Both the position numbers and the translations under genes were made by a program. This document shows positions 14,325-32,108 of a stretch of 32,273 nucleotides of DNA, piece by piece. Within the stretch, counting starts at the first letter, position 1. Each line of letters begins with the position of its first letter. Below the pieces are notes generated by a model that was not told where the DNA came from, made no database searches, and worked only from the letters and a program-made list of their open reading frames with translations. This DNA comes from Opitutus sp. (GTDB taxonomy: Bacteria; Verrucomicrobiota; Verrucomicrobiia; Opitutales; Opitutaceae), in NCBI GenBank assembly GCA_025361365.1, contig JANYAM010000163.1:1-32273 (forward strand). The letters run 5' to 3'.

Positions 14325-14453
14325 TTACATCGCGCGGGTGATTTTCAAGCACGCGACCCAGGGCTGGTCGGCGGCGACGAGGGCCGGTGGGGCGGAGAGC
14401 CGGTGGTGCAGCTTGATCACGCTCGCCCGGTCCAGCGCGATGAGCGCGCGGAT
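14325..14453 (-). pseudogene. Coding-looking fragment or small gene without a usual start
   Basis: Read on the minus strand, 14453 to the TAA at 14325 gives IRALIALDRASVIKLHHRL, then SAPPALVAADQPWVACLKITRAM. This has high-GC third positions and a protein-like composition. The frame is open back to 14519 but has no ATG or TTG; the only GTG (14420) would give 31 residues. It lies just upstream of lemA in a 381-base gap. It may be the remnant of a gene whose 5' part is lost or frameshifted, or a small gene with an unusual start. I do not recognise the family. Confidence 0.35.
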
Positions 14454-14598
14454 GGCTGCGCCTGCCGGACAAGGAGCAGAACATGGCGGAGGGAAGGAGA
14501 AGACAGCATGGGGACCAGTCTAGGGCAACCGGCGGTCTCCCGCCATCGGGGGCCTTCCTGATTCGCCATGGTGTAATGACTGCTCCCCGCCGGCGACA

Positions 14599-14645
14599 GG
14601 TAGGGCAAGGCCTTATATCTCCCGCGACCCCGGTAGCCTATCGTT
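14599..14645 (+). promoter_or_regulatory. Shared upstream element, copy A (before the YihY gene)
   Basis: A 27-base core at 14599-14625 matches the core at 22636-22662 in 23 positions: GGTAGGkCAAGkCC followed by kTATATCyCCCGC. Both are followed after 5-6 bases by GGTwGCC(G)TATsGT, and both end 10-15 bases before the start codon of a membrane-protein gene. It may be a promoter for an alternative sigma factor or a 5'-UTR element. A weaker resemblance to the GTAGG repeat family (32216) means a decayed repeat is also possible. Confidence 0.5.
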
Positions 14646-14654
14646 ATCCGCGCC

Positions 14655-15623
14655 ATGGCCAAACCCCCGGACCGACCTCACCACGCCCATCATCTGCCCA
14701 AGGGGAAGGAAGTGCTGGCTGCGGCGGTGGAGCAAGTCGGCATCTTCCATCGCTCGGGCCGGATTCTGGCGCGGACCATCCACGCATTCATCTCCGACAA
14801 TATCATGCGGCTCGGCGCGGCGCTGGCCTTCTACACCACCGTGGCGGTCGCACCCCTCCTGGTGCTGGCGATTGCGATGGCGGGGACCGTGTTCGGCAAA
14901 AGCGAGGCGCGCGAGCAGATCATCGGCGAGATTGAGCGGCTGGCGGGCTCGCAGGCCAGCGCCGCCTTCGCCGCCGTGAACAGCCCCGTGACCGCCACCT
15001 CTGGCGTGCTCGCCACCCTGTTTGGCGCGGGCACGATCATTTTCGGCACGCTCGGGGTTTTCAACCAGCTGCAGGATGCGCTCAACGCCATCTGGCGCGT
15101 GCCGCCGAAGCCCATGCTGGGTTGGTGGCATTTCCTGCAGGGCCGCCTGTTTTCCCTGGCCACCGTCATCGGCACGGGCTTCCTGCTGCTCGTGTCGCTC
15201 GTGGCCAGCGCGATGCTCAGCTGGGTGGGCGCGCAGACCGCGCACCACCTCGAGTTGCCGGTGTTCGGGCTCGAGCTCGTGAACAACACCATCTCGTTCG
15301 GCGTGGTGACGGTGCTGTTTGCCCTGGTCTTCCGGCTGCTCCCCGACACGCCGGTGCGGATGAAGCACGTCTGGATCGGCGCGGGCGTGACCGCGCTGCT
15401 GTTCACGCTGGGCAAGACCGGGCTGGGATATTACCTCGGGCGTGCGAGCCTCACCTCCGCCTACGGGGCGGCCGGTTCGCTGCTCGTGCTGCTGCTCTGG
15501 TGCTACTACGCGGCGCAGATCGTGTTTTTCGGGGCCGAGTTCACGCGCGTCACGGCGCTGAGCGACGGCGGGCGCGACTTCACGCCCTTCGCGCAACCGG
15601 CGGAGAAGGGCCGTCCACTATGA
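14655..15623 (+). CDS. YihY/BrkB-family inner membrane protein
   Basis: 322 residues with about six hydrophobic segments. Family features: NIMRLGAALAFYTTVAVAPLLVLAIA at the first helix, FGTLGVFNQLQDALNAIWRV, and the C-terminal LTSAYGAAGSLLVLLLWCYYAAQIVFFGAEFTRV, the most conserved YihY/BrkB block. Transport function is often assumed but not established. The stop overlaps the start of the next gene by four bases (ATGA), so they are coupled. A shared regulatory-looking element lies directly upstream. Confidence 0.93.
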   Translation: MAKPPDRPHHAHHLPKGKEVLAAAVEQVGIFHRSGRILARTIHAFISDNIMRLGAALAFYTTVAVAPLLVLAIAMAGTVFGKSEAREQIIGEIERLAGSQASAAFAAVNSPVTATSGVLATLFGAGTIIFGTLGVFNQLQDALNAIWRVPPKPMLGWWHFLQGRLFSLATVIGTGFLLLVSLVASAMLSWVGAQTAHHLELPVFGLELVNNTISFGVVTVLFALVFRLLPDTPVRMKHVWIGAGVTALLFTLGKTGLGYYLGRASLTSAYGAAGSLLVLLLWCYYAAQIVFFGAEFTRVTALSDGGRDFTPFAQPAEKGRPL

Positions 15624-16864
15624 GCGCGGCCACGCTGCCGGAGGGCCCGCCTGTCCGCGCGCCGCGCGTGGTGCGGTTTGAGCTGTCGCTGAAGTCGCTG
15701 TTCATCGTCATGAGCCTGCTCGCGGGCGTGTGGCTGCTCGTGCACGCGCTGCCGGTGCTGCTGGTGCTGGTAGCGGCGTTGATGTTGGTGGGCGCGCTCA
15801 ATCCCGTGGTGGCGGGGCTGGAGCGCCGGGGCGCTGGGCGGGGCTTTGCGGTGTTCCTGGTCTTTGCCGTCGGCACCGCCGTGGCGGCCACGCTGTTCAT
15901 CCTGACGGTGCCGACCGTGGTCCGCCAGGTGAGGTCGGTGGCGGAACATGAACCGGAAATCCGCGAGAAGATCGCGGGCTACCTCGAGAACTCGCGTCTC
16001 ACCGTGGGGCTGGCGAGCGACATTCGCGAGGCCCGTTATACGGAAATGCTTAAATCCTCCCGGCCGTTCTTGCTGTCGCTGGGTGCGCAGGCCTTCGAAC
16101 TCGCCGCCGGGATCGTGGCCTCCGTCTTTCTCGCGTTCTACGTGATGCTTGACCACGAACGCTTGCGCGGCGCGTTGTTCGCCGTCGTGCCCCGCTCGCA
16201 CCACATCCGGCTCGCGCGGATCCTGCTCAACCTTGGGACGATTGTGGGTGGTTACATCCGCGGGCAGTTGCTGACCTGCGCCCTCATGGGCGGGTTCATC
16301 CTCGTGCTGCTGCTCGCGTGCGGCGTGCCCAACGCGCTGGCGATCGCCGTATTTGGCGGCGTGATGGACCTGCTGCCTTACATCGGGATCTTTCTTACCA
16401 TGGGGCCGGCCGTGCTGGCGGCGGCGGAGCAGGGACCGGTTGTCGCGGGCACGGTCTTTGTGCTGATGCTGGCGTATGAGGAGCTCGAGAGCCGTGTGCT
16501 CGTGCCGCTGGTCTACGGGCGGGCGCTGCGGCTGCCGTCCTCGGTGGTGTTTTTCTCCCTGATCGCGGGCACGGCGATGGCCGGCCTCGTGGGCGCGCTG
16601 CTGGCGCTGCCCATGGCGGCCGCGATCCTGATGCTCATCGAGGAACTGCGCGTCGAGCTGCCGGGCGAGGCGGTCCTGGCCGAGGACGTGGCCCAGCAAC
16701 GGGCCGATGACCACGGCGAGCAGGAATACGAACGCCGCGCGGAGAACCTGCCGGCGGAGGCGGGCCGCGCCGGCCCTCGGGTCCGCCGGGGCCCTCGCGC
16801 CGGGCGAAGCTGGGGTCGGGCGCGCCGCGGTACGCGCGCGGCACGAAGGGGAAATCCTCCGTGA
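15620..16864 (+). CDS. AI-2E-family transporter-like membrane protein
   Basis: 414 residues from ATG 15620. The membrane topology fits the AI-2E/PerM family: two helices near the N-terminus, a cytoplasmic helical part (RQVRSVAEHEPEIREKIAGYL), then a conserved core with FLAFYVMLDHERLR, GTIVGGYIRGQLLTC, DLLPYIGIFLTMGPA and VLVPLVYGRALRLPSSVVFFSLIAG. Members export small molecules or ions; the substrate is unknown. The last 75 or so residues are Arg/Gly/Ala-rich and are encoded opposite the 3' end of the YHYH gene, so they may be a high-GC read-on rather than conserved protein. Confidence 0.92.
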   Translation: MSAATLPEGPPVRAPRVVRFELSLKSLFIVMSLLAGVWLLVHALPVLLVLVAALMLVGALNPVVAGLERRGAGRGFAVFLVFAVGTAVAATLFILTVPTVVRQVRSVAEHEPEIREKIAGYLENSRLTVGLASDIREARYTEMLKSSRPFLLSLGAQAFELAAGIVASVFLAFYVMLDHERLRGALFAVVPRSHHIRLARILLNLGTIVGGYIRGQLLTCALMGGFILVLLLACGVPNALAIAVFGGVMDLLPYIGIFLTMGPAVLAAAEQGPVVAGTVFVLMLAYEELESRVLVPLVYGRALRLPSSVVFFSLIAGTAMAGLVGALLALPMAAAILMLIEELRVELPGEAVLAEDVAQQRADDHGEQEYERRAENLPAEAGRAGPRVRRGPRAGRSWGRARRGTRAARRGNPP

Positions 16865-17675
16865 GCACGTAATGATACGTGCCGCCGGGAAACTCCGGCG
16901 TCACGCCGGTGCGTCCCCCGCACTCGTCCAGGTCGCCGCTGCCGGCGGCGTAGTCGAAATCCTCGACGAAGCTGCCGTCATAGAAACCCCCTGGCTGGTC
17001 GCCGGTCCCCGGCCGCCGGCCCTTTTTCAAGTGATAGCTGCTGCGGAGTTTCACGACGGGGCTGGCGGCGTGGGCCGCGTCGCGGTGGCCCCAGGCGGCG
17101 TAGATGGGGAAGCCGTCGGCAGCCCAGCCGACGAGCGTCATCTTCTCCTGGCCGCCGGAGAGCCGCTGCAGGAGCGCGACGGGAATGCCGTGGTAATGGT
17201 AGGCGCCGTTGGGCTGCACGTGGGCGTTGTTGGAATCGAGGCCGAGCGAGAACGCGCCGCCGAGGGCGTCGTAGTGCCAGCCGGAGTCGCGGTCGTTGTG
17301 CCACATCTCGGCGGTGCCGGGATCGAACAGCACGCCATTGATCGCGATGCCGAAGGGCTGGCGGCCCAGCGGCACCGGCCGGGCGGCGGCCACGGGCTGC
17401 GCCGGCATCGTGAAGCGGTAGCGCTGCGCGCTGACGCGGTTCGGGTTATCCGCGTTGGGGAAGCGGCCAGTGGCGTGATCGGGCAGGCCATTCGAGGTGA
17501 CGATGCGCTGGTCGCCCGCGATGGTGATCGTCACCTCGTTGCCACCAGGCGGCGGCTCGGTGGCGGGCACCCCGGCGATGTCCATCTTTTGGGTCGCGTT
17601 GTGGTTCGGGTGCGCGGCGAGCGCGCCGGCGACGGCGAGGACCAGGGGCAGGACGACCAGAGGGGGGCGGCGCAT
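16635..17675 (-). CDS. Secreted YHYH-domain protein
   Basis: 346 residues from ATG 17675 with a signal peptide (MRRPPLVVLPLVLAVAGALAAH). The namesake motif is in GAYHYHGIPVALL, with AINGVLFDPGTAEMW upstream, GWAADGFPIYAAWG, DECGGRTGVTPEFPGGTYHYVLTEDFPFVPR and FRGxPDPSF-type YRGAPDPSF downstream, all typical of this exported family of unknown function. His-rich motifs suggest metal binding (inference). The last ~80 residues are Pro/Arg/Gly-rich and lie antisense to the end of the AI-2E gene. An upstream TTG (17693) is not needed. Confidence 0.88.
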   Translation of the reverse strand: MRRPPLVVLPLVLAVAGALAAHPNHNATQKMDIAGVPATEPPPGGNEVTITIAGDQRIVTSNGLPDHATGRFPNADNPNRVSAQRYRFTMPAQPVAAARPVPLGRQPFGIAINGVLFDPGTAEMWHNDRDSGWHYDALGGAFSLGLDSNNAHVQPNGAYHYHGIPVALLQRLSGGQEKMTLVGWAADGFPIYAAWGHRDAAHAASPVVKLRSSYHLKKGRRPGTGDQPGGFYDGSFVEDFDYAAGSGDLDECGGRTGVTPEFPGGTYHYVLTEDFPFVPRAYRGAPDPSFARREGPGGPEGRRGPPPPAGSPRGVRIPARRGHRPVAGPRPRPGPPRPAARRAVPR

Positions 17676-17776
17676 GATGCCCTCAGCTTGCAAATCCGCC
17701 GCGCAGTGACAACCATGGGATTAAGCCGTGGTTTGGCGGGATGGAACCGGTGGAGACTCTGTGTTGCCGCCACGGG

Positions 17777-17803
17777 TTCTGGTAACGCAATACGTTACCA
17801 GAA
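17777..17803. promoter_or_regulatory. Perfect 11-bp inverted repeat between two minus-strand genes
   Basis: TTCTGGTAACG (17777-17787), loop CAATA, CGTTACCAGAA (17793-17803). It lies 8 bases after the SGNH gene stop and about 100 bases before the YHYH start. No U-run follows on the minus strand, so it is either a non-canonical terminator or an operator for the YHYH gene. Confidence 0.6.
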
Positions 17804-17811
17804 ATCGGCGC

Positions 17812-18882
17812 TCACCGCGCCAGCGCGGCTTTCAGATAGAGCACGAGGCGCTTGCTGAACTCCACCGAGTCCGGGCCCGACAGGTGCGACCACTCCGGGC
17901 ACTCGAAGACCAGGTCGGGATGATCCGAGTAGTAGAGGTTCGGCGCCTTGGTCTCGTTCATCAGGCGGGTCCAGGCGGCGGAGCGCGGCGTGCCGGCGTC
18001 CTCCAATTTCTTCAGGTCGCCGCTGTGCGGGAAACGGACGAAGACAATCTTGCCGCCGCGGGCCTGCAGTTTCTTCACCAGTGCGGCCGTCTTGCCGAAG
18101 CGTTCCTCCACGGTCTGCGCCAGGCCGGCGAGCACCTCCTTGGGTGTGTAGTCGGGGAAGGGCGGCGGGGTGAACAGCGGGATCCAGCCGTGCTTGATGC
18201 GGTCCTGCAGCGGGCCCGGCTGGGCGCAGGCCTCGGTCATGCGGGCCCGGCGCTCGCGGTCCATGGTGGAAAAATACGGCGGCAGGAGCGGCGGCAGGTA
18301 GGAGTTGGCGCGGCTGGGCACCGGCACCTGCGCGATCAGCTGACTGAGCACGAGGTCGTCCTGCTTCATGAACGCGATGCGCTCCTCGAGGAACATGCCG
18401 AGATGGTGGCCGGCGCGCTGCGCCACCGTGCGGGTGTGGTAACGATGGAGCGCGTCCTCGGCGTTTTTCAGCAGCGGGCCGCCGGGGGCGAAAAACATGC
18501 CGGGCACGACGCTGCAGATCACGGTGCCGTGGAAACGCTCGTCATTCAGCAGGTCCTCCAGGATCGGGTAGACGCAGGTGCCGGCCAGCGCGAGTTGCAC
18601 GGGCCGCCGGCCGAGGCCCTGCTCGAGCGCGTCGAGGTCGAGGTCGAACAGCGGCCGGGAGTCGCCGAGGATGACCACCGAGTCCGGCTGCACGGCCTCG
18701 CGGCGGTCGGCCCAGAGGTCGGTCGTGTCGTTGAGCGTCGGCGCGTAGCCGCGGGCGCGGGCCGAGATTTCCCAGGCCACGGTGCCGGCCGCGGTCAGCA
18801 GCAGCGCGGTGAGCAGCAGGGTCCGCCAGGGCTGGGCCGGGATCGGCCGCTGGAAATCAAAACTGGAAGTAGATGAATGCAT
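17812..18882 (-). CDS. SGNH-hydrolase-like membrane-anchored partner of the MBOAT protein
   Basis: 356 residues from ATG 18882. One transmembrane helix (LLLTALLLTAAGTVAWEI, about 22-39) places the rest outside the cytoplasm. VVILGDSRPLFDLDLDALE (GDS at 73-75, Ser75 the likely nucleophile) is block I of SGNH/GDSL hydrolases. FVRFPHSGD and ECPEWSHLSGPDSVEFSKRL resemble the later blocks, with His in EWSHLS as candidate catalytic base. Such proteins accompany MBOAT acyltransferases (as AlgX/AlgJ with AlgI) to acetylate or otherwise modify polysaccharides. It overlaps the MBOAT gene by 26 bases. Confidence 0.75.
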   Translation of the reverse strand: MHSSTSSFDFQRPIPAQPWRTLLLTALLLTAAGTVAWEISARARGYAPTLNDTTDLWADRREAVQPDSVVILGDSRPLFDLDLDALEQGLGRRPVQLALAGTCVYPILEDLLNDERFHGTVICSVVPGMFFAPGGPLLKNAEDALHRYHTRTVAQRAGHHLGMFLEERIAFMKQDDLVLSQLIAQVPVPSRANSYLPPLLPPYFSTMDRERRARMTEACAQPGPLQDRIKHGWIPLFTPPPFPDYTPKEVLAGLAQTVEERFGKTAALVKKLQARGGKIVFVRFPHSGDLKKLEDAGTPRSAAWTRLMNETKAPNLYYSDHPDLVFECPEWSHLSGPDSVEFSKRLVLYLKAALAR

Positions 18883-20275
18883 TGCCGCTGCCTTGGGTGA
18901 GGATGATGGCGCCGAGCATCAGGGTCCACGCGCCGCCGATGAGCCAGGCGGGCTGCCGGTCGATGGCCGTCTCCAGCGCGGTGTCGCGCAGCCGCCAGTG
19001 CACCAGCCACAGGCCGAAGATCACGAGCGCGACCTGGAGGATCTCGCGGCCGGACAGGATCGCCTGGCCGACGGGGATCTTGCCGGCCATGGCGCCGAGG
19101 ATGAGCGCGGCGCCATGGAAGTTCGCGGCGCGGAAGAAGACCCACGCGATGCACACGAAGAAGTAGGTCACGAGGCAGAGGGCCAGCTGCACCGGTAGCG
19201 TTTCCTTCCAGGCCGCGTCCTTGGTGGCCGTGCGGAAGAAGTGCTCGACCACGAGGCACAGGCCGTGGATCAGGCCCCACACGACGAAGGTCCAGGCCGC
19301 ACCGTGCCACAGGCCGCCGAGGAACATCACGATGATGAGGTTGAGCGCGGCGCGGGCGGCGCCGGCGCGGCTGCCGCCCAGCGGGAAGTAGAGGTAGTCG
19401 CGCAGGAAGGTGGACAGGGAGATGTGCCAGCGCCGCCAGAAATCCGAGAAGCCCACCGAGGCGAAGGGAAACAGGAAATTATCCTTCAGGTGGAAGCCGA
19501 GGCAGAGCGCCGCGCCGATGGCGCAGGTGGAATAGCCGGAGAAATCGAAGAAGATCTGGCCGGAGAAGGCGATCACGCCGGTCCAGGCGTCGAGCGTGAG
19601 CACCGGGCCGGGGTTGCCAAAGACACTGTCCGCCACCGGGGCGAGCAGGGTGTCGGCCAGCACGATTTTCTGAAACATGCCGAGCGACATCAGGAACAGG
19701 CCCCACTGCAGTCGGTTTTTCAGCGGGGTGGGCGGAGTCGCGCACTGCGGCAGGAAGTCGGCGGCGCGCACGATCGGGCCGGCGACCAGCTGGGGAAAGA
19801 ACGACACGGCGAGCAGGAAGTCGCGCAGGGACCGGGTCGGCGTCGTCGCGCCGCGGTAGACGTCGAGCGTGTAGGACAGCGAGTGGAAGGTGTAGAACGA
19901 GATGCCGATCGGCAGGAACAGGTCGAGGTGCGGCGGCGCGTAGGTGACGCCAACGCGGGCCAGCAGCCACTGGGTGTTCTCGAGCAGGAAATTCCCGTAT
20001 TTGAAAAATCCCAGCATGCTGAGGTTGGCCGTGATGCTGCTCACCAGCCAGATCTTCTTGGAACCCGCGGGCGCCGTGGCGATGCGCGCGCCGAGCCAGT
20101 AGTCGAGGGTGGTGGTGGCGAAGAGCAGGAGCGCGAACGGCGGATTCCACGCGCCGTAGAAAATGTAGCTCGCCACGAGCAGCAGGTTCTTGCGCGCGTC
20201 CCACGAGCGGAGGGACCAGTAGCCGCCCATCACGAGGGCGAAGAAAACGACGAAAGTGAGCGAGTTGAACAGCAC
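18857..20275 (-). CDS. MBOAT-family O-acyltransferase (AlgI/DltB-like)
   Basis: 472 residues from GTG 20275 (VLFNSLTFVVFFALV, the standard AlgI-type N-terminus); a longer frame from GTG 20335 adds a non-family leader. About ten hydrophobic segments. Conserved MBOAT features: LPIGISFYTFHSLSYTLDVYRG, SFFPQLVAGPIVRAADFLPQ, FWRRWHISLSTFLRDYLYFPLGG and the catalytic His in GGLWHGAAWTFVVWG. It transfers acyl groups, usually acetyl, across the inner membrane onto an exported polymer; the polymer is not identifiable here because no glycan-synthesis genes adjoin. It pairs with the SGNH-like gene downstream. Confidence 0.93.
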   Translation of the reverse strand: MLFNSLTFVVFFALVMGGYWSLRSWDARKNLLLVASYIFYGAWNPPFALLLFATTTLDYWLGARIATAPAGSKKIWLVSSITANLSMLGFFKYGNFLLENTQWLLARVGVTYAPPHLDLFLPIGISFYTFHSLSYTLDVYRGATTPTRSLRDFLLAVSFFPQLVAGPIVRAADFLPQCATPPTPLKNRLQWGLFLMSLGMFQKIVLADTLLAPVADSVFGNPGPVLTLDAWTGVIAFSGQIFFDFSGYSTCAIGAALCLGFHLKDNFLFPFASVGFSDFWRRWHISLSTFLRDYLYFPLGGSRAGAARAALNLIIVMFLGGLWHGAAWTFVVWGLIHGLCLVVEHFFRTATKDAAWKETLPVQLALCLVTYFFVCIAWVFFRAANFHGAALILGAMAGKIPVGQAILSGREILQVALVIFGLWLVHWRLRDTALETAIDRQPAWLIGGAWTLMLGAIILTQGSGNAFIYFQF

Positions 20276-20942: not shown

Positions 20943-21016
20943 GCCTCCGGAGCTAGCGCGATGACCGCCCGATTGGCGAGATTTTATGCGGTGGCATCGG
21001 GGTGCAGGCCGGAAAC

Positions 21017-21037
21017 TTGTAATCCATTATATTACAA
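21017..21037. promoter_or_regulatory. Operator-like palindrome in the divergent gap
   Basis: TTGTAAT (21017-21023), seven bases, ATTACAA (21031-21037). It sits in an unusually AT-rich patch between genes running left (start 20942) and right (start 21047 or 21119). TATAAT on the minus strand (21026-21031) and TATATT on the plus strand (21028-21033) lie inside it, so it may be promoter and operator at once. No matching -35 was convincing. Confidence 0.5.
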
Positions 21038-21054
21038 ATTGTCGGGGTGGCGGT

Positions 21055-21117
21055 TGCCCGGCCGGGCCCGGCTTTTTTCTGGCTTCCGGTTGCGGCGGAG
21101 CGGAACTACGTTCCGCT
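21055..21117 (+). promoter_or_regulatory. Structured leader before the PAP2 gene
   Basis: Two overlapping palindromes, GCCCGGCCGGGC and GCCGGGCCCGGC, run into TTTTTT (21073-21078) and resemble a terminator. A second hairpin AGCGGAAC/GTTCCGCT (21099-21117) ends one base before a GTG. If translation starts at 21119 this is a leader that could attenuate; if it starts at 21047 it is coding. Confidence 0.35.
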
Positions 21118-21118
21118 G

Positions 21119-21892
21119 GTGGATGCTGATTTGAGAGCCTCTGATGCTGGCCGATCCGCCTGGCAGCTCGCCGGCGAACTGCTGACGCGACCCTATCCAC
21201 TGACCGCGCGATTGGTCGTGCCGGCGGTCATGCTCATGGTGCTGGTGCCGTGTTACCTCGTCATTCCCGCGCTGACCCGCGGGCGGCCGCTGCACCTGCC
21301 CGAAATGGCTTTGGATCGGCTCGTGCCGGTGCAGCCGGCCTGGGCGGTGATTTATTTGTCCTACTTCTGCTTTCCTTTCGTGGCCTTGCTGGTGGTCCGC
21401 CAGGAGGAGCTGCTCCGCCGGACTTTCCTGGCTTGGCTGATGGCGTGGATCACGGGGTATGTCTGCTTCCTGGTCTATCCCACGATCCTCCCGCGGCCGG
21501 CCGGAGAGCTGGGTCCGGGGTTTTTTGCGTGGTTCCTGCGGGGCGTCTGGGCCGCCGACGCGCCGCGCAACTGCCTGCCCTCCCTTCACGTCGCGAGCCC
21601 GTTCGTGGCGGCGATCACGATCTGGCGCGTGCATCGCGGCACGGGCCTCGCGGTCGGCGTCTGGGCTGCACTCATCGCGCTGTCGACGTTGTTCACCAAG
21701 CAACACTATGTCGCGGATGTCATCGGCGGGATGCTGCTGGCGGGCGTTGCGAGTGCCCTCTGCCTGCGCCATTGCCCGCGCGAACCGCTGCCCGAGAGCG
21801 ACCGCCACGCCATCCCGCTCCTCGTGCTGGGAGTCATCGGGGTTTACGCGTTCGTGGTCGCCGGCCTGTGGGTGGCCTACCGGATGGGGTGA
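21119..21892 (+). CDS. PAP2-family phosphatase (membrane)
   Basis: 257 residues from GTG 21119, or 281 from GTG 21047; the earlier part overlaps hairpins and a dispersed 18-base repeat, so the later start is chosen with low certainty. About six hydrophobic segments. PAP2 motifs 2 and 3 are visible as CLPSLHVASPFVAA (active-site His) and STLFTKQHYVADVIGG (nucleophile His in KQHY..D). Motif 1 is less clear. Family members dephosphorylate lipid phosphates such as undecaprenyl diphosphate or phosphatidic acid, or act in inositol-lipid synthesis; the substrate is not determined. Confidence 0.85.
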   Translation: MDADLRASDAGRSAWQLAGELLTRPYPLTARLVVPAVMLMVLVPCYLVIPALTRGRPLHLPEMALDRLVPVQPAWAVIYLSYFCFPFVALLVVRQEELLRRTFLAWLMAWITGYVCFLVYPTILPRPAGELGPGFFAWFLRGVWAADAPRNCLPSLHVASPFVAAITIWRVHRGTGLAVGVWAALIALSTLFTKQHYVADVIGGMLLAGVASALCLRHCPREPLPESDRHAIPLLVLGVIGVYAFVVAGLWVAYRMG

Positions 21893-21950
21893 GCGATCAA
21901 GATGGCCGGAAGCAATGGACGCCTTCGCTCTTCTGCCCGGGCTATCTCCT

Positions 21951-22490
21951 TCAGGATTGAGGTTGAGGCACGAGCGCCAGTGTGGCGGCGGCCAGGCCGC
22001 GGGCTTGCAGGCCGGCGAGGATCGCGGCGTAAGTGGCGGCGGGTAACTGGCGTTCCCGGCTCAGCACCCACAGCAGCCCGCCGTCGTTGGTCCCGACCAC
22101 CGCCCAGCGATAGTCGGCATCGAGGGCGAAAATCTTGCAGGTTACGGAGACCGGCCAGATGAAGCTGACCTTCCACACCGCATTGCTAACGGGATCAATG
22201 ACCCGCGCCGTGCCGGTCCAGGTCTTCTCCGGGCCGTCCACCGTCTTTTCGCGGAAAGTGAAATTGTTGGTCAGTTTGCCGTCGGGCCGCCGCGCGTAGG
22301 TGTCGTAGCTGGCGACCTTGCCCTTCTCCAAGAAGTAGGGGGTATGGCTGATGACATACCACCGGCCCATGTAGCGGTCGAGGTCCACCGCGGCGACCGG
22401 GGCGGGCAGGGATTGTTTGCCCGTGACGCAGCCGGCGAACAGCAGCACGGCCAGGGCCGAGGGAAGGAGAGGGGCGAAGCGGAAGAGCAT
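21951..22490 (-). CDS. Outer-membrane-type lipocalin lipoprotein (Blc-like)
   Basis: 179 residues from ATG 22490. The signal sequence ends in the lipobox LFAGC with Cys21. The lipocalin signature follows: LDRYMGRWYVISHTPYFLE (GxWY), then strands such as YDTYARRPDGKLTNNFTF, and RWAVVGTNDGGLLWVLSRERQLP, the conserved TDY.YA/LSR region. Bacterial lipocalins bind fatty acids or lysophospholipids and sit in the outer membrane. The frame upstream of 22490 is unlikely to be translated. Confidence 0.92.
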   Translation of the reverse strand: MLFRFAPLLPSALAVLLFAGCVTGKQSLPAPVAAVDLDRYMGRWYVISHTPYFLEKGKVASYDTYARRPDGKLTNNFTFREKTVDGPEKTWTGTARVIDPVSNAVWKVSFIWPVSVTCKIFALDADYRWAVVGTNDGGLLWVLSRERQLPAATYAAILAGLQARGLAAATLALVPQPQS

Positions 22491-22635
22491 GGGGCAAGGG
22501 ATGTCTCTTATTGCCAATAGCAACTCGTCCCGGGACCGGGTCCGCCGGCGCGATTCGCCGAAAGGCGCAAGGGAGAAATCTTGTCGGCGGCGCACGCGGG
22601 GTTTGGATCCGCGACCTGAACCTCCCCGAGGCGGA

Positions 22636-22681
22636 GGTAGGTCAAGTCCGTATATCCCCCGCCGCGGGGTTGCCGTATGGT
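22636..22681 (+). promoter_or_regulatory. Shared upstream element, copy B (before the DUF748-like gene)
   Basis: The core 22636-22662 matches copy A (14599-14625) in 23 of 27 bases, followed by GGTTGCCGTATGGT at 22668-22681. It ends just before the TTG proposed as start (22688), as copy A ends just before its ATG. CTCCCCG occurs about 14 bases before both cores. Confidence 0.5.
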
Positions 22682-22687
22682 CCGGTC

Positions 22688-23878
22688 TTGCGGGCTCCCA
22701 CCAATCACCTCGGGCGCCGCGTCCTCTCCTGGCCGCGGAAGGTTCTCATCACCCTCGCGGTGATCGCCACCGTCCTGTTGGTGGGGCGGATTGCCCTGCC
22801 GGTGGTCGTCCGGCGGGTGATCAACAGCCGCTTGGAGCGGATCCCTGGCTACACGGGGCACGTGGACGACGTTCGCATCCATCTCTGGCGCGGCGCCTAC
22901 ACCCTCCATGGGTTCGGCATCTACCGGCAAACCGGCCTGGTGCAGGAGCCCTTCTTTCTCGCGCGGGGCATCGACATCTCCCTCGCCTGGCGCGAAGTGG
23001 CGCGCGGCCGCTTCGTGAGCAACATCCAGGTCGACCAGGGTCAGTTGCATTTCGTGAAGGGCGCGAGCGACGAGGCGAGCCAGACGGACTTCGACCGGCG
23101 GTGGCAGGACGTGATCCAGGATGTTTTCCCCATCGACATCACGCACCTGGAAATCACCGACGGTCTCCTGCGCTACCTGGACCACACCAGCAAACCGGAA
23201 GTGGACCTGTTCGTCACGCATATGCGGGCCACCGCCACCGGGCTGCGCAACCGGCCGGAGGAGGCGGGCGCCGGGGAATTTCCGGCCCGGATCACCGTCA
23301 CGGGCGAGAGCCTCGGGGGCGGGACGGTGGAGCTGCTTCTCGTCGCGGAGCCGCTGGCGGAGCAGCCGCATTTCCACCTCAGCCTGAAGCTCGACAATGT
23401 GAACCTGCCGGCACTGAACGAGTCACTGCGCGCCTACGCCAACGTCGACGTGGGCCGGGGCACGTTTCGCCTGGTGGGCGAGATGGCGGGCCGCGACGGG
23501 GGATTCCAGGGTTACCTGAAGCCGTTTTTCGAGAACCTGGATTTCAAGAACATCGAGGACCGGCAAAAAGGCTTTGCCGCGCAGGTCTGGGAACGCCTGG
23601 TCGCCACCTTCGCGTGGGTGATGAAGGACAAATCCCGCGGCCAGCTGGCCACCCGCATTCCCTTTGAGGGGAAGTTCGGCGACGCGAAGATCGGGCTGCT
23701 CGCCACGATCGCCAATATCTTCCGCCACGGCTTTATCCACGCCTTCAATCCCACGCTCGATAACTCGGTGCACGCCGACCAGATCCTGCCCAGCGGAAAA
23801 AGCCAGGCCGGTGCCGCGGCGGCGCAGAGCCTTCCCGACGACGCCCCGGGGAAGACGGAGAAACCGGCCAAACCGTAA
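22688..23878 (+). CDS. DUF748/AsmA-like membrane-anchored protein
   Basis: 396 residues from TTG 22688; the frame is open from 22511 but the first 59 codons cross the shared upstream element and lack protein character. A single N-terminal helix (VLITLAVIATVLLVGRIALPVVV) is followed by GYTGHVDDVRIHLWRGAYTLHGFGIYRQTG, DISLAWREVARGRFVSNIQVDQGQLHFVKG and VFPIDITHLEITDGLLRYLD, the layout of DUF748 proteins related to AsmA, thought to span the envelope and act in lipid or outer-membrane processes. The C-terminal 30 residues are Ala/Pro/Lys-rich. The exact start is uncertain. Confidence 0.78.
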   Translation: MRAPTNHLGRRVLSWPRKVLITLAVIATVLLVGRIALPVVVRRVINSRLERIPGYTGHVDDVRIHLWRGAYTLHGFGIYRQTGLVQEPFFLARGIDISLAWREVARGRFVSNIQVDQGQLHFVKGASDEASQTDFDRRWQDVIQDVFPIDITHLEITDGLLRYLDHTSKPEVDLFVTHMRATATGLRNRPEEAGAGEFPARITVTGESLGGGTVELLLVAEPLAEQPHFHLSLKLDNVNLPALNESLRAYANVDVGRGTFRLVGEMAGRDGGFQGYLKPFFENLDFKNIEDRQKGFAAQVWERLVATFAWVMKDKSRGQLATRIPFEGKFGDAKIGLLATIANIFRHGFIHAFNPTLDNSVHADQILPSGKSQAGAAAAQSLPDDAPGKTEKPAKP

Positions 23879-23957
23879 GGCCGGGCGCGCGGATTGCGGC
23901 CTTGCGAGCCCGGCGGCTTCGGGCAACCTCCGGCTGAAGCGTCCGCGCTTTTTTCCC

Positions 23958-31252: not shown

Positions 31253-31356
31253 AGTTGAGAGTTGAGCGATGAGAGTTGAGAGCAAGAAGCGCGGAAAGGC
31301 GAGACCGGGAGTTCGAGGGATTGGATCTCTCAACCCTCAACTCTCATCTCTCAACT
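31253..31356. repeat. Imperfect 30-bp inverted repeat of TTGAGAG units between pyrH and frr
   Basis: Left arm 31253-31282 is built of GTTGAGAG/GATGAGAG units; right arm 31327-31356 is their inverted form (CTCTCAAC, CTCAACTCTCATCTC). It lies within the 135-base pyrH-frr gap. It can form a long hairpin that could affect frr expression. Confidence 0.7.
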
Positions 31357-31367
31357 GGTGCGCGACA

Positions 31368-32108
31368 TCAATTGTGCACCAGCGTGCCGATCTTGTCGCC
31401 CATGACGGCCTTCTTGATGGCGTGGGGGTCGTCGAGATTGAAGACGAGGATGGGGACGTTGTTGTCGAGGCAGAGCGAGAAGGCGGTCGAGTCCATGACG
31501 TTGAGCCGCTGGCGGAGCGCCTCGACGAAGGTGAGCTCCTCGTATTTGACCGCGTCGGGGAACTTCTTCGGGTCCTTGTCGTAGATGCCGTCCACCTTGG
31601 TCGCCTTCATGATGATGTCGGCGTGGAGCTCGGAGGCGCGGAGGGCGGCGGTGGTGTCGGTCGAGAAATACGGGTTGCCCGTGCCGGCGACGAAGATGAC
31701 GACGCGCTTTTTCTCCAGATGGCGCATGGCGCGGCGCATGATGAACGGTTCGGCGATCTGGTTCATCGGGATGGCGGACTGGACGCGGGTCTTCACGCCC
31801 ATCTTCTCGAGGCAGTCCATGATGGCCAGGCCGTTGATGACGGTGGCGAGCATGCCCATGTAGTCGCCGGTGGTGCGGTCGACGCCGCGCTTGGCGCCCT
31901 GCAGGCCGCGAAAGATGTTGCCGCCGCCGATGACGACGCAGACCTGCACGCCGAGGTCGTGGATTTCCTTCACCTGTTCGCACATCCGCTCGAGGGTGGC
32001 GGCATCGATCGGCTCGGTGCCCTTGGCGCCCCGCAACACCTCGCCGCTCAGCTTCAGGACGACGCGCTGGTATTTGACGGTGGGCGAGGCGGCGGATTTG
32101 GCGGGCAT
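31368..32108 (-). CDS. pyrH: UMP kinase
   Basis: 246 residues from ATG 32108. Phosphorylates UMP to UDP in pyrimidine nucleotide synthesis; hexameric amino-acid-kinase fold. Visible: [13 protein letters not shown] at the phosphate-binding N-terminus, [11 protein letters not shown] (glycine-rich loop), [19 protein letters not shown] (UMP binding), [38 protein letters not shown] and [20 protein letters not shown]. The product length is normal. It starts the pyrH-frr pair; no clear ribosome site. Confidence 0.97.

Follow-up and report, generated by a model that had tools for sequence, protein, structure and literature searches.

What do two short, closely matching sequences do in front of genes of unrelated families in an Opitutus genome? 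In the 32,273-nt stretch of DNA analysed here, which we call the window throughout, a preliminary description had noted two such elements of about 45 bp, each ending shortly before a start codon, and proposed that they mark a regulon. Read directly, positions 14599-14625 and 22636-22662 are indeed identical at 23 of 27 core bases, and the second conserved block of that description turns out to be a -10-like hexamer, TATCGT in copy 1 and TATGGT in copy 2, at equal distance from the upstream box. Both elements are copies of one conserved promoter in Opitutaceae, with the following parts.

14600..14616, + strand: upstream box of copy 1, GTAGGGCAAGGCCTTAT, at about -51 to -35, provided that the -10 is correctly placed; located by pattern and PWM
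14639..14644, + strand: -10 hexamer of copy 1, TATCGT; placed by column reading, from fixed spacing and conservation
22637..22653, + strand: upstream box of copy 2, GTAGGTCAAGTCCGTAT; placed by pattern and PWM
22676..22681, + strand: -10 hexamer of copy 2, TATGGT; placed by column reading, from fixed spacing and conservation

The pattern GTAGGNCAAGNCCNNATATCNCCCGC, with up to 3 mismatches allowed, matched the window exactly twice and had no match in 100 shuffles. It also occurs exactly twice in the whole of G000, the bin to which the window belongs, where the reversed pattern has no match; a third, diverged site in this bin, on contig C17, was picked up by a looser model only. Scored with a PWM built from 31 other sites, both window copies being excluded, the two elements reached 31.0 and 28.7 bits and ranked first and second, more than 33 bits above the next place in the window (-4.6 bits), with 11.2 bits as the best of 30 Markov surrogates.

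The genes behind the two copies, together with the neighbour of the first, are these.

14655..15623, + strand: YihY/BrkB-family inner-membrane protein gene behind copy 1 (PF03631, 9e-47), starting at ATG 14655
15701..16864, + strand: AI-2E-family transporter gene (PF01594, 1.3e-46); the span given begins where the Pfam match begins and ends at the stop codon, the start codon not being fixed
22688..23878, + strand: DUF748 gene behind copy 2 (PF05359, 1.6e-22), with a TTG start at 22688; 'AsmA-like' is the label of the preliminary description

Judged from the position of its -10, the YihY mRNA would have a leader of a few nucleotides only, and the AI-2E transporter gene is probably in one operon with YihY. 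A gene of G011 that by likeness encodes an AI-2E transporter carries its own element. Of the 21 genomes of the genus, the window's bin included, 5 had a YihY match and 4 a DUF748 match. The YihY orthologue of G017 (82%) has its own element in the same place, as does the DUF748 orthologue of G010 (65% identical), which is followed by YihY. By eye, the ATG of this G010 gene aligns with TTG 22688. The preliminary description had used the element to settle the otherwise unclear TTG start of the second gene, and since the element-bearing G010 orthologue begins with ATG at that very position, TTG 22688 is likely the true start of the DUF748 gene.

Further sites were collected with a loose pattern, which gave 20 matches compared with 13 in the backward control (9 compared with 4 for another loose pattern); by eye, 12 of the 20 were retained and 8 discarded. 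Those retained precede BON, AI-2E-like, PRC-barrel-like, lipoprotein-like and ECF sigma genes as well as the window's two genes. Model R1, sequence-only and built from 11 of these 12, found more sites, and model R2 was made from 38 of 63 sites hand-picked for diversity; the window's two sites are in both models, and locus L013 was excluded from set A1. Sites were also scored around the gene for one ECF sigma factor, ECF-A, in the best 80 of 204 relatives in named genomes, which are mostly labelled Opitutaceae, Opitutae, Opitutia, Opitutus or Verrucomicrobia, with one Acidobacteria and one 'bacterium'. In these 80 loci the PWM found 64 sites above 14 bits, and none in reversed sequence. The ECF upstream regions read on the opposite strand, which were to serve as a control, scored above 12 bits in 9 of 80 cases, and several of the nine are sites before divergent BON genes.

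Alignment of the sites gave a consensus of a 17-bp box, GTAGGnCAACRCCCCAT, followed by 22 bp and a sigma70-type -10 (TAnnnT). Of 66 box/-10 pairs, 63 share a single distance (59 of the 62 unique ones), and reversed sequence yielded no pairs. Selection by box columns 1-21 alone gave 153 unique sites in the 1.06 Mb of loci fetched (the reversed control, duplicates included, gave 11). In these sites T41 is present in 85% (C in 11%), A42 in 98% and T46 in 97%, with little else conserved in between. Because models that score the -10 had been used to fetch some of these loci, we repeated the count on 110 loci fetched by the ECF-A protein alone, with training sites removed. The 61 new boxes in this set (reversed control 9) have T41 in 50 cases, C41 in 6, A42 in 59, T46 in 59, and A42 together with T46 in 57. 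In a minority of sites the -10 begins with CA instead of TA, the last T being kept. Among -10 letters, sigma70 reads A-11 and T-7 most strictly. If T41 is taken as -12, the box spans about -51 to -35; the columns at the expected -35 position differ from TTGACA, and the block nearest to -35 is CCCCAT. The box holds a partial dyad, GGGY-N3-RCCC, in which columns 8 and 12 go together as T-A or C-G (odds ratio 3.8, p 0.003, for one column pair picked after inspection and with relatedness ignored).

How the sites lie relative to genes was assessed with gene calls made by our own GC3 rule. The first ATG of a predicted gene falls 0-20 nt past the -10 (T46) at 68 of 145 sites as against 105 of 7250 random places (1.4%), and within 0-120 nt at 93 sites as against 635 random places, 52 sites having no such ATG within 120 nt; these counts are not independent, as ECF-A or site matches decided which loci entered the set, and the downstream genes include many orthologues. 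Allowing any in-frame start codon weakened the contrast (107 of 145 sites vs 1027 of 2900 random places). The copies thus hug start codons, rather than being scattered at random or at gene 3′ ends as the preliminary description expected of a decayed repeat.

The 107 of the 145 sites that have a downstream start form set A4. Among 25 of 31 families listed, the 107 proteins behind these sites include 35 with sigma-70 region 2, 24 BON, 4 DUF748, 3 PRC, 2 BrkB, 2 HisKA_3 and 1 DUF892, in a sample that leans to ECF genes since many loci were fetched with them. Overall, the element precedes BON, PRC-barrel, DUF892, YihY, DUF748 and ECF sigma genes and, by likeness, Dps and DUF883 genes. We then surveyed 120 Opitutaceae genomes, each at least 80% complete, with R2 (E <= 0.05), and found matches in 52 of them and in 27 of 48 genera; strict filters and the scoring of 50 candidates per genome mean that weak sites may be missed, and individual sites were taken from among the matches listed. 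Throughout the family the same element thus stands in front of many envelope and stress genes, close to their start codons, which bears out the proposed regulon element. Judged from the genes that it precedes, it is probably a regulon promoter that would switch on envelope- and stress-protection genes together. Among the matches listed, we found no paper in the open-access literature on the element or on an Opitutaceae stress-regulon promoter. So sharp a motif offers a direct test of which genes Opitutaceae use against envelope and osmotic stress, and of their controller; for genes of unknown function, namely those of DUF748, DUF892, PRC-barrel and a small basic protein of 39 residues, it also hints at where they start and whether they belong to the regulon.

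This last protein appears as a very basic, conserved 39-residue open frame (approximately MAKKSRGGRMTAAKNRAAKSKGGKGPIKNRPAGRNIMKT) about 46-49 nt past the -10 in L132, L135, L144, L145 and L299, the last being the C17 site of G000. In the four of these loci seen as DNA (L132, L135, L145 and L299), the -10 before the frame has CA for TA. The frame is apparently a small protein of the same regulon that lies outside the gene calls.

Which factors would read this promoter? Box, fixed spacing, -10 letters, gene positions, conservation and regulon content are all properties of the sequences; the activator, its dimeric state, the use of sigma70, the start sites and stress induction belong to the model that we build on them. 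In this model, which we regard as somewhat more probable than not, each element on its own makes up a complete activator-dependent promoter that serves one stress regulon and is used by the main sigma factor. We favour an activator with the main sigma because of the position of the box, the rigid spacing, the -10 letters, the weak dyad and the presence of the element in genomes without ECF-A. A transcription activator, probably dimeric, would bind the 17-bp box just upstream of -35 (about -51 to -35) and hold RNA polymerase carrying a sigma70-type main sigma on TAnnnT exactly 22 bp downstream, the promoter having no -35 hexamer of its own. At about half of the sites transcription would begin a few bases ahead of the start codon, which would leave these mRNAs leaderless or with a very short leader. 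The regulon would comprise BON, PRC-barrel, DUF892, YihY and DUF748 genes and, by likeness, Dps, DUF883 and AI-2E genes, with the ECF sigma factor, often a member, as a putative second tier.

Promoters of this kind are known as class II activator-dependent sigma70 promoters, such as those of CRP, PhoB and NarL/FixJ-type regulators. The Opitutaceae element resembles them in that its box sits beside -35 at a fixed distance from the -10 and a -35 hexamer is absent, and its -10 is of sigma70 type by the counts at A42, T46 and T41 in both site sets given above (the 61 new boxes and the 153 sites). It differs in that its activator is postulated and that its box, GTAGGnCAACRCCCCAT, has not been matched, without a motif library, to a known regulator. 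Several observations count against an activator: the box is only partly symmetric, and the element tracks ECF-A to a degree and precedes the ECF-A gene, which would also fit autoregulation by a sigma factor. No activator gene was found. Neighbour clusters in the 80 ECF-A loci are BON (18 loci), histidine kinases (17), a NarL-type response regulator (12) and a cluster that we take to be Dps-like (10), of which the NarL-type regulator was the best candidate. At E <= 1e-45 it is absent from G008 and G010, both of which have sites, and from G006 and G000, being present in 7 of 21 genus genomes; we therefore set it aside as the activator and keep it as a lead.

The alternative that survives best, though we judge it unlikely, is that the element is a promoter read by ECF-A itself: with CCCCAT as an unusual -35 and a spacer that is long but fixed, it would put both the sigma gene and the stress regulon under ECF-A control. 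Within the genus, ECF-A orthologues (at least 61% over a 150-residue query) occur in 9 of 21 genomes, and by eye the element is recognisable directly before 8 of these 9 genes. Sites at E <= 0.01 were found in 8 of 9 genomes with ECF-A vs 2 of 12 without, a count in which most genomes had supplied training sites to R1 and a second ECF (54-55%) in G001, G008 and G015 was not taken as ECF-A. In the wider set, 33 of the 80 loci have the element before ECF-A itself, 5 of the 33 sites being identical to PWM training sites, and the BON genes found near ECF-A point the same way. The family survey again associated the two to a degree, with sites in 36 of 59 genomes having ECF-A vs 16 of 61 without (Fisher p 2e-4, relatedness ignored) and at least 5 sites in 18 of 59 vs 4 of 61. 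ECF-A was called there at a gap in profile scores (306 vs 289 bits) where we set the cut (E < 1e-90), and four genomes in which A2 had no match at E <= 1e-40 were entered as lacking ECF-A. The negative group is not clean, as G110, which belongs to it, has an ECF gene (288.6 bits) with a site directly upstream.

Against control by ECF-A, the same survey found 23 genomes with ECF-A and no site, under filters strict enough to miss weak sites, and many sites in genomes without ECF-A: 7 in G021, 9 in G089, 8 in G064 and 7 in G118; the genomes with many sites but no ECF-A include five of genus g2. Of the sites that we read, those of G021 and G089 precede BON genes, that of G118 a PRC-barrel-like gene and those of G064 lipoprotein-like genes. 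The bin G000 likewise has no ECF-A gene, yet carries the C17 site. Because so many sites occur in genomes without it, ECF-A is probably a target of the element and not its sole reader, a role that the genus data had favoured and the family survey weakened.

The letters argue in the same direction. According to excerpts of PMC8103513, a classical ECF promoter has AAC at -35 and CGT at -10, and excerpts of PMC3426412 give a spacer of 16+/-1 for ECF41. In the Opitutaceae element there is no AAC/CGT pair: CCCCAT is nearest to -35, and the -10, (T/C)AnnnT, retains A-11 and T-7. The distance is fixed at 22 bp from CCCCAT to TAnnnT, or 20 to a CGTA-like tetramer, the value for comparison being that of ECF41 only. 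Like the autoregulated ECF41 promoters in these excerpts (PMC3426412; PMC8103513), the element stands before a sigma gene and before other genes; unlike them, it has a sigma70-like -10 and neither the AAC/CGT pair nor the 16+/-1 spacer, and it is present where ECF-A is missing. GAAC in some BON promoters was tried as a canonical ECF -35 and rejected, its distance to the -10 being far too long.

Less probable still is direct recognition of the entire 46-bp element by another alternative sigma factor, from group 2/3 or a second ECF. The fixed geometry would fit, as would the abundance of sigma genes in a genome (G000 has 17 region-2 matches), but the -10 is of the ordinary type and conserved letters extend to about -51, farther than the -35 contact of a sigma factor usually reaches. 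The earlier proposal of an alternative-sigma promoter is thus possible but disfavoured, given the sigma70-like -10, the non-ECF spacing and the presence of the element in genomes without ECF-A. The other half of that proposal, a translation-control site or an RNA element in the 5′ leader, has in its favour the start codons close by; it found no support and seems very improbable, since the conserved parts end at the -10 hexamer, upstream of the presumed transcript start, most of the predicted leaders are too short to hold them, and Rfam gave no match in the window. A decayed, dispersed GTAGG repeat or chance, suggested by the left half GTAGG that had been taken for a repeat and by loose patterns that do match by chance, is scarcely credible given two copies of the strict pattern in G000, PWM matches that vanish in reversed sequence, the placement at starts and conservation before orthologues.

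A wider possibility, which we put forward tentatively and consider rather doubtful, is an undescribed general stress response of Opitutaceae, with an intact 46-bp module (box, fixed 22-bp gap and -10) before envelope-stress genes, read by a dedicated regulator or sigma factor with an unprecedented promoter geometry and giving leaderless stress mRNAs. As in the alphaproteobacterial EcfG general stress response in excerpts of PMC8103513, the stress regulon can include an ECF gene; the canonical EcfG promoters described there have AAC at -35 and CGTT at -10, both absent in the Opitutaceae element. A regulon defined by a new motif that is tied to an activator also recalls the TetR-activated promoter motif of acetogens (PMC6873888), in another organism and with another regulator, a likeness at the level of description.

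Two observations concern ECF-A loci. In L173, L179-L181, L183, L185 and L186 a variant stands before ECF-A, with GGTAGGTACAGACCCCGTATC in 6 of the 7 and CTA near the place of the -10; it is perhaps a diverged form of the element. Downstream of ECF-A in G009 (L118:2606-5587) lie a KaiC homologue and a KaiB-like gene whose match stays under the NCBIfam cut-off.

Finally, we considered the origin of the window. The bin G000 contains pyrH twice, at 31368-32108 of the window and at C100:77-814, with proteins 94% identical; the window's pyrH is 99% identical to the copy in G012, and other near-complete genomes of the genus hold one pyrH. Compared with two G012 stretches, most long blocks of the window are collinear at 84-91% DNA identity, with shorter pieces at 69-82%. 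Positions 14348-17095 and 17220-20264 have no counterpart in the compared G012 stretches, and 20945-23884, which includes DUF748, does not align to G012, though a stretch of similar length is present there; neither YihY nor DUF748 had a match in G012. The bin may hold two organisms, the window's contig coming from a relative of G012; base composition was uninformative on its origin. Such contamination would probably account only in part for the missing ECF-A in G000, as the C17 site is also in this bin. The blocks with YihY/AI-2E and MBOAT genes (14348-20264) are variable relative to G012, and each element lies near the edge of or inside a variable block. Simple AGTTGAGAG units form an inverted repeat at 31253-31356 of the window, its arms 44 nt apart.
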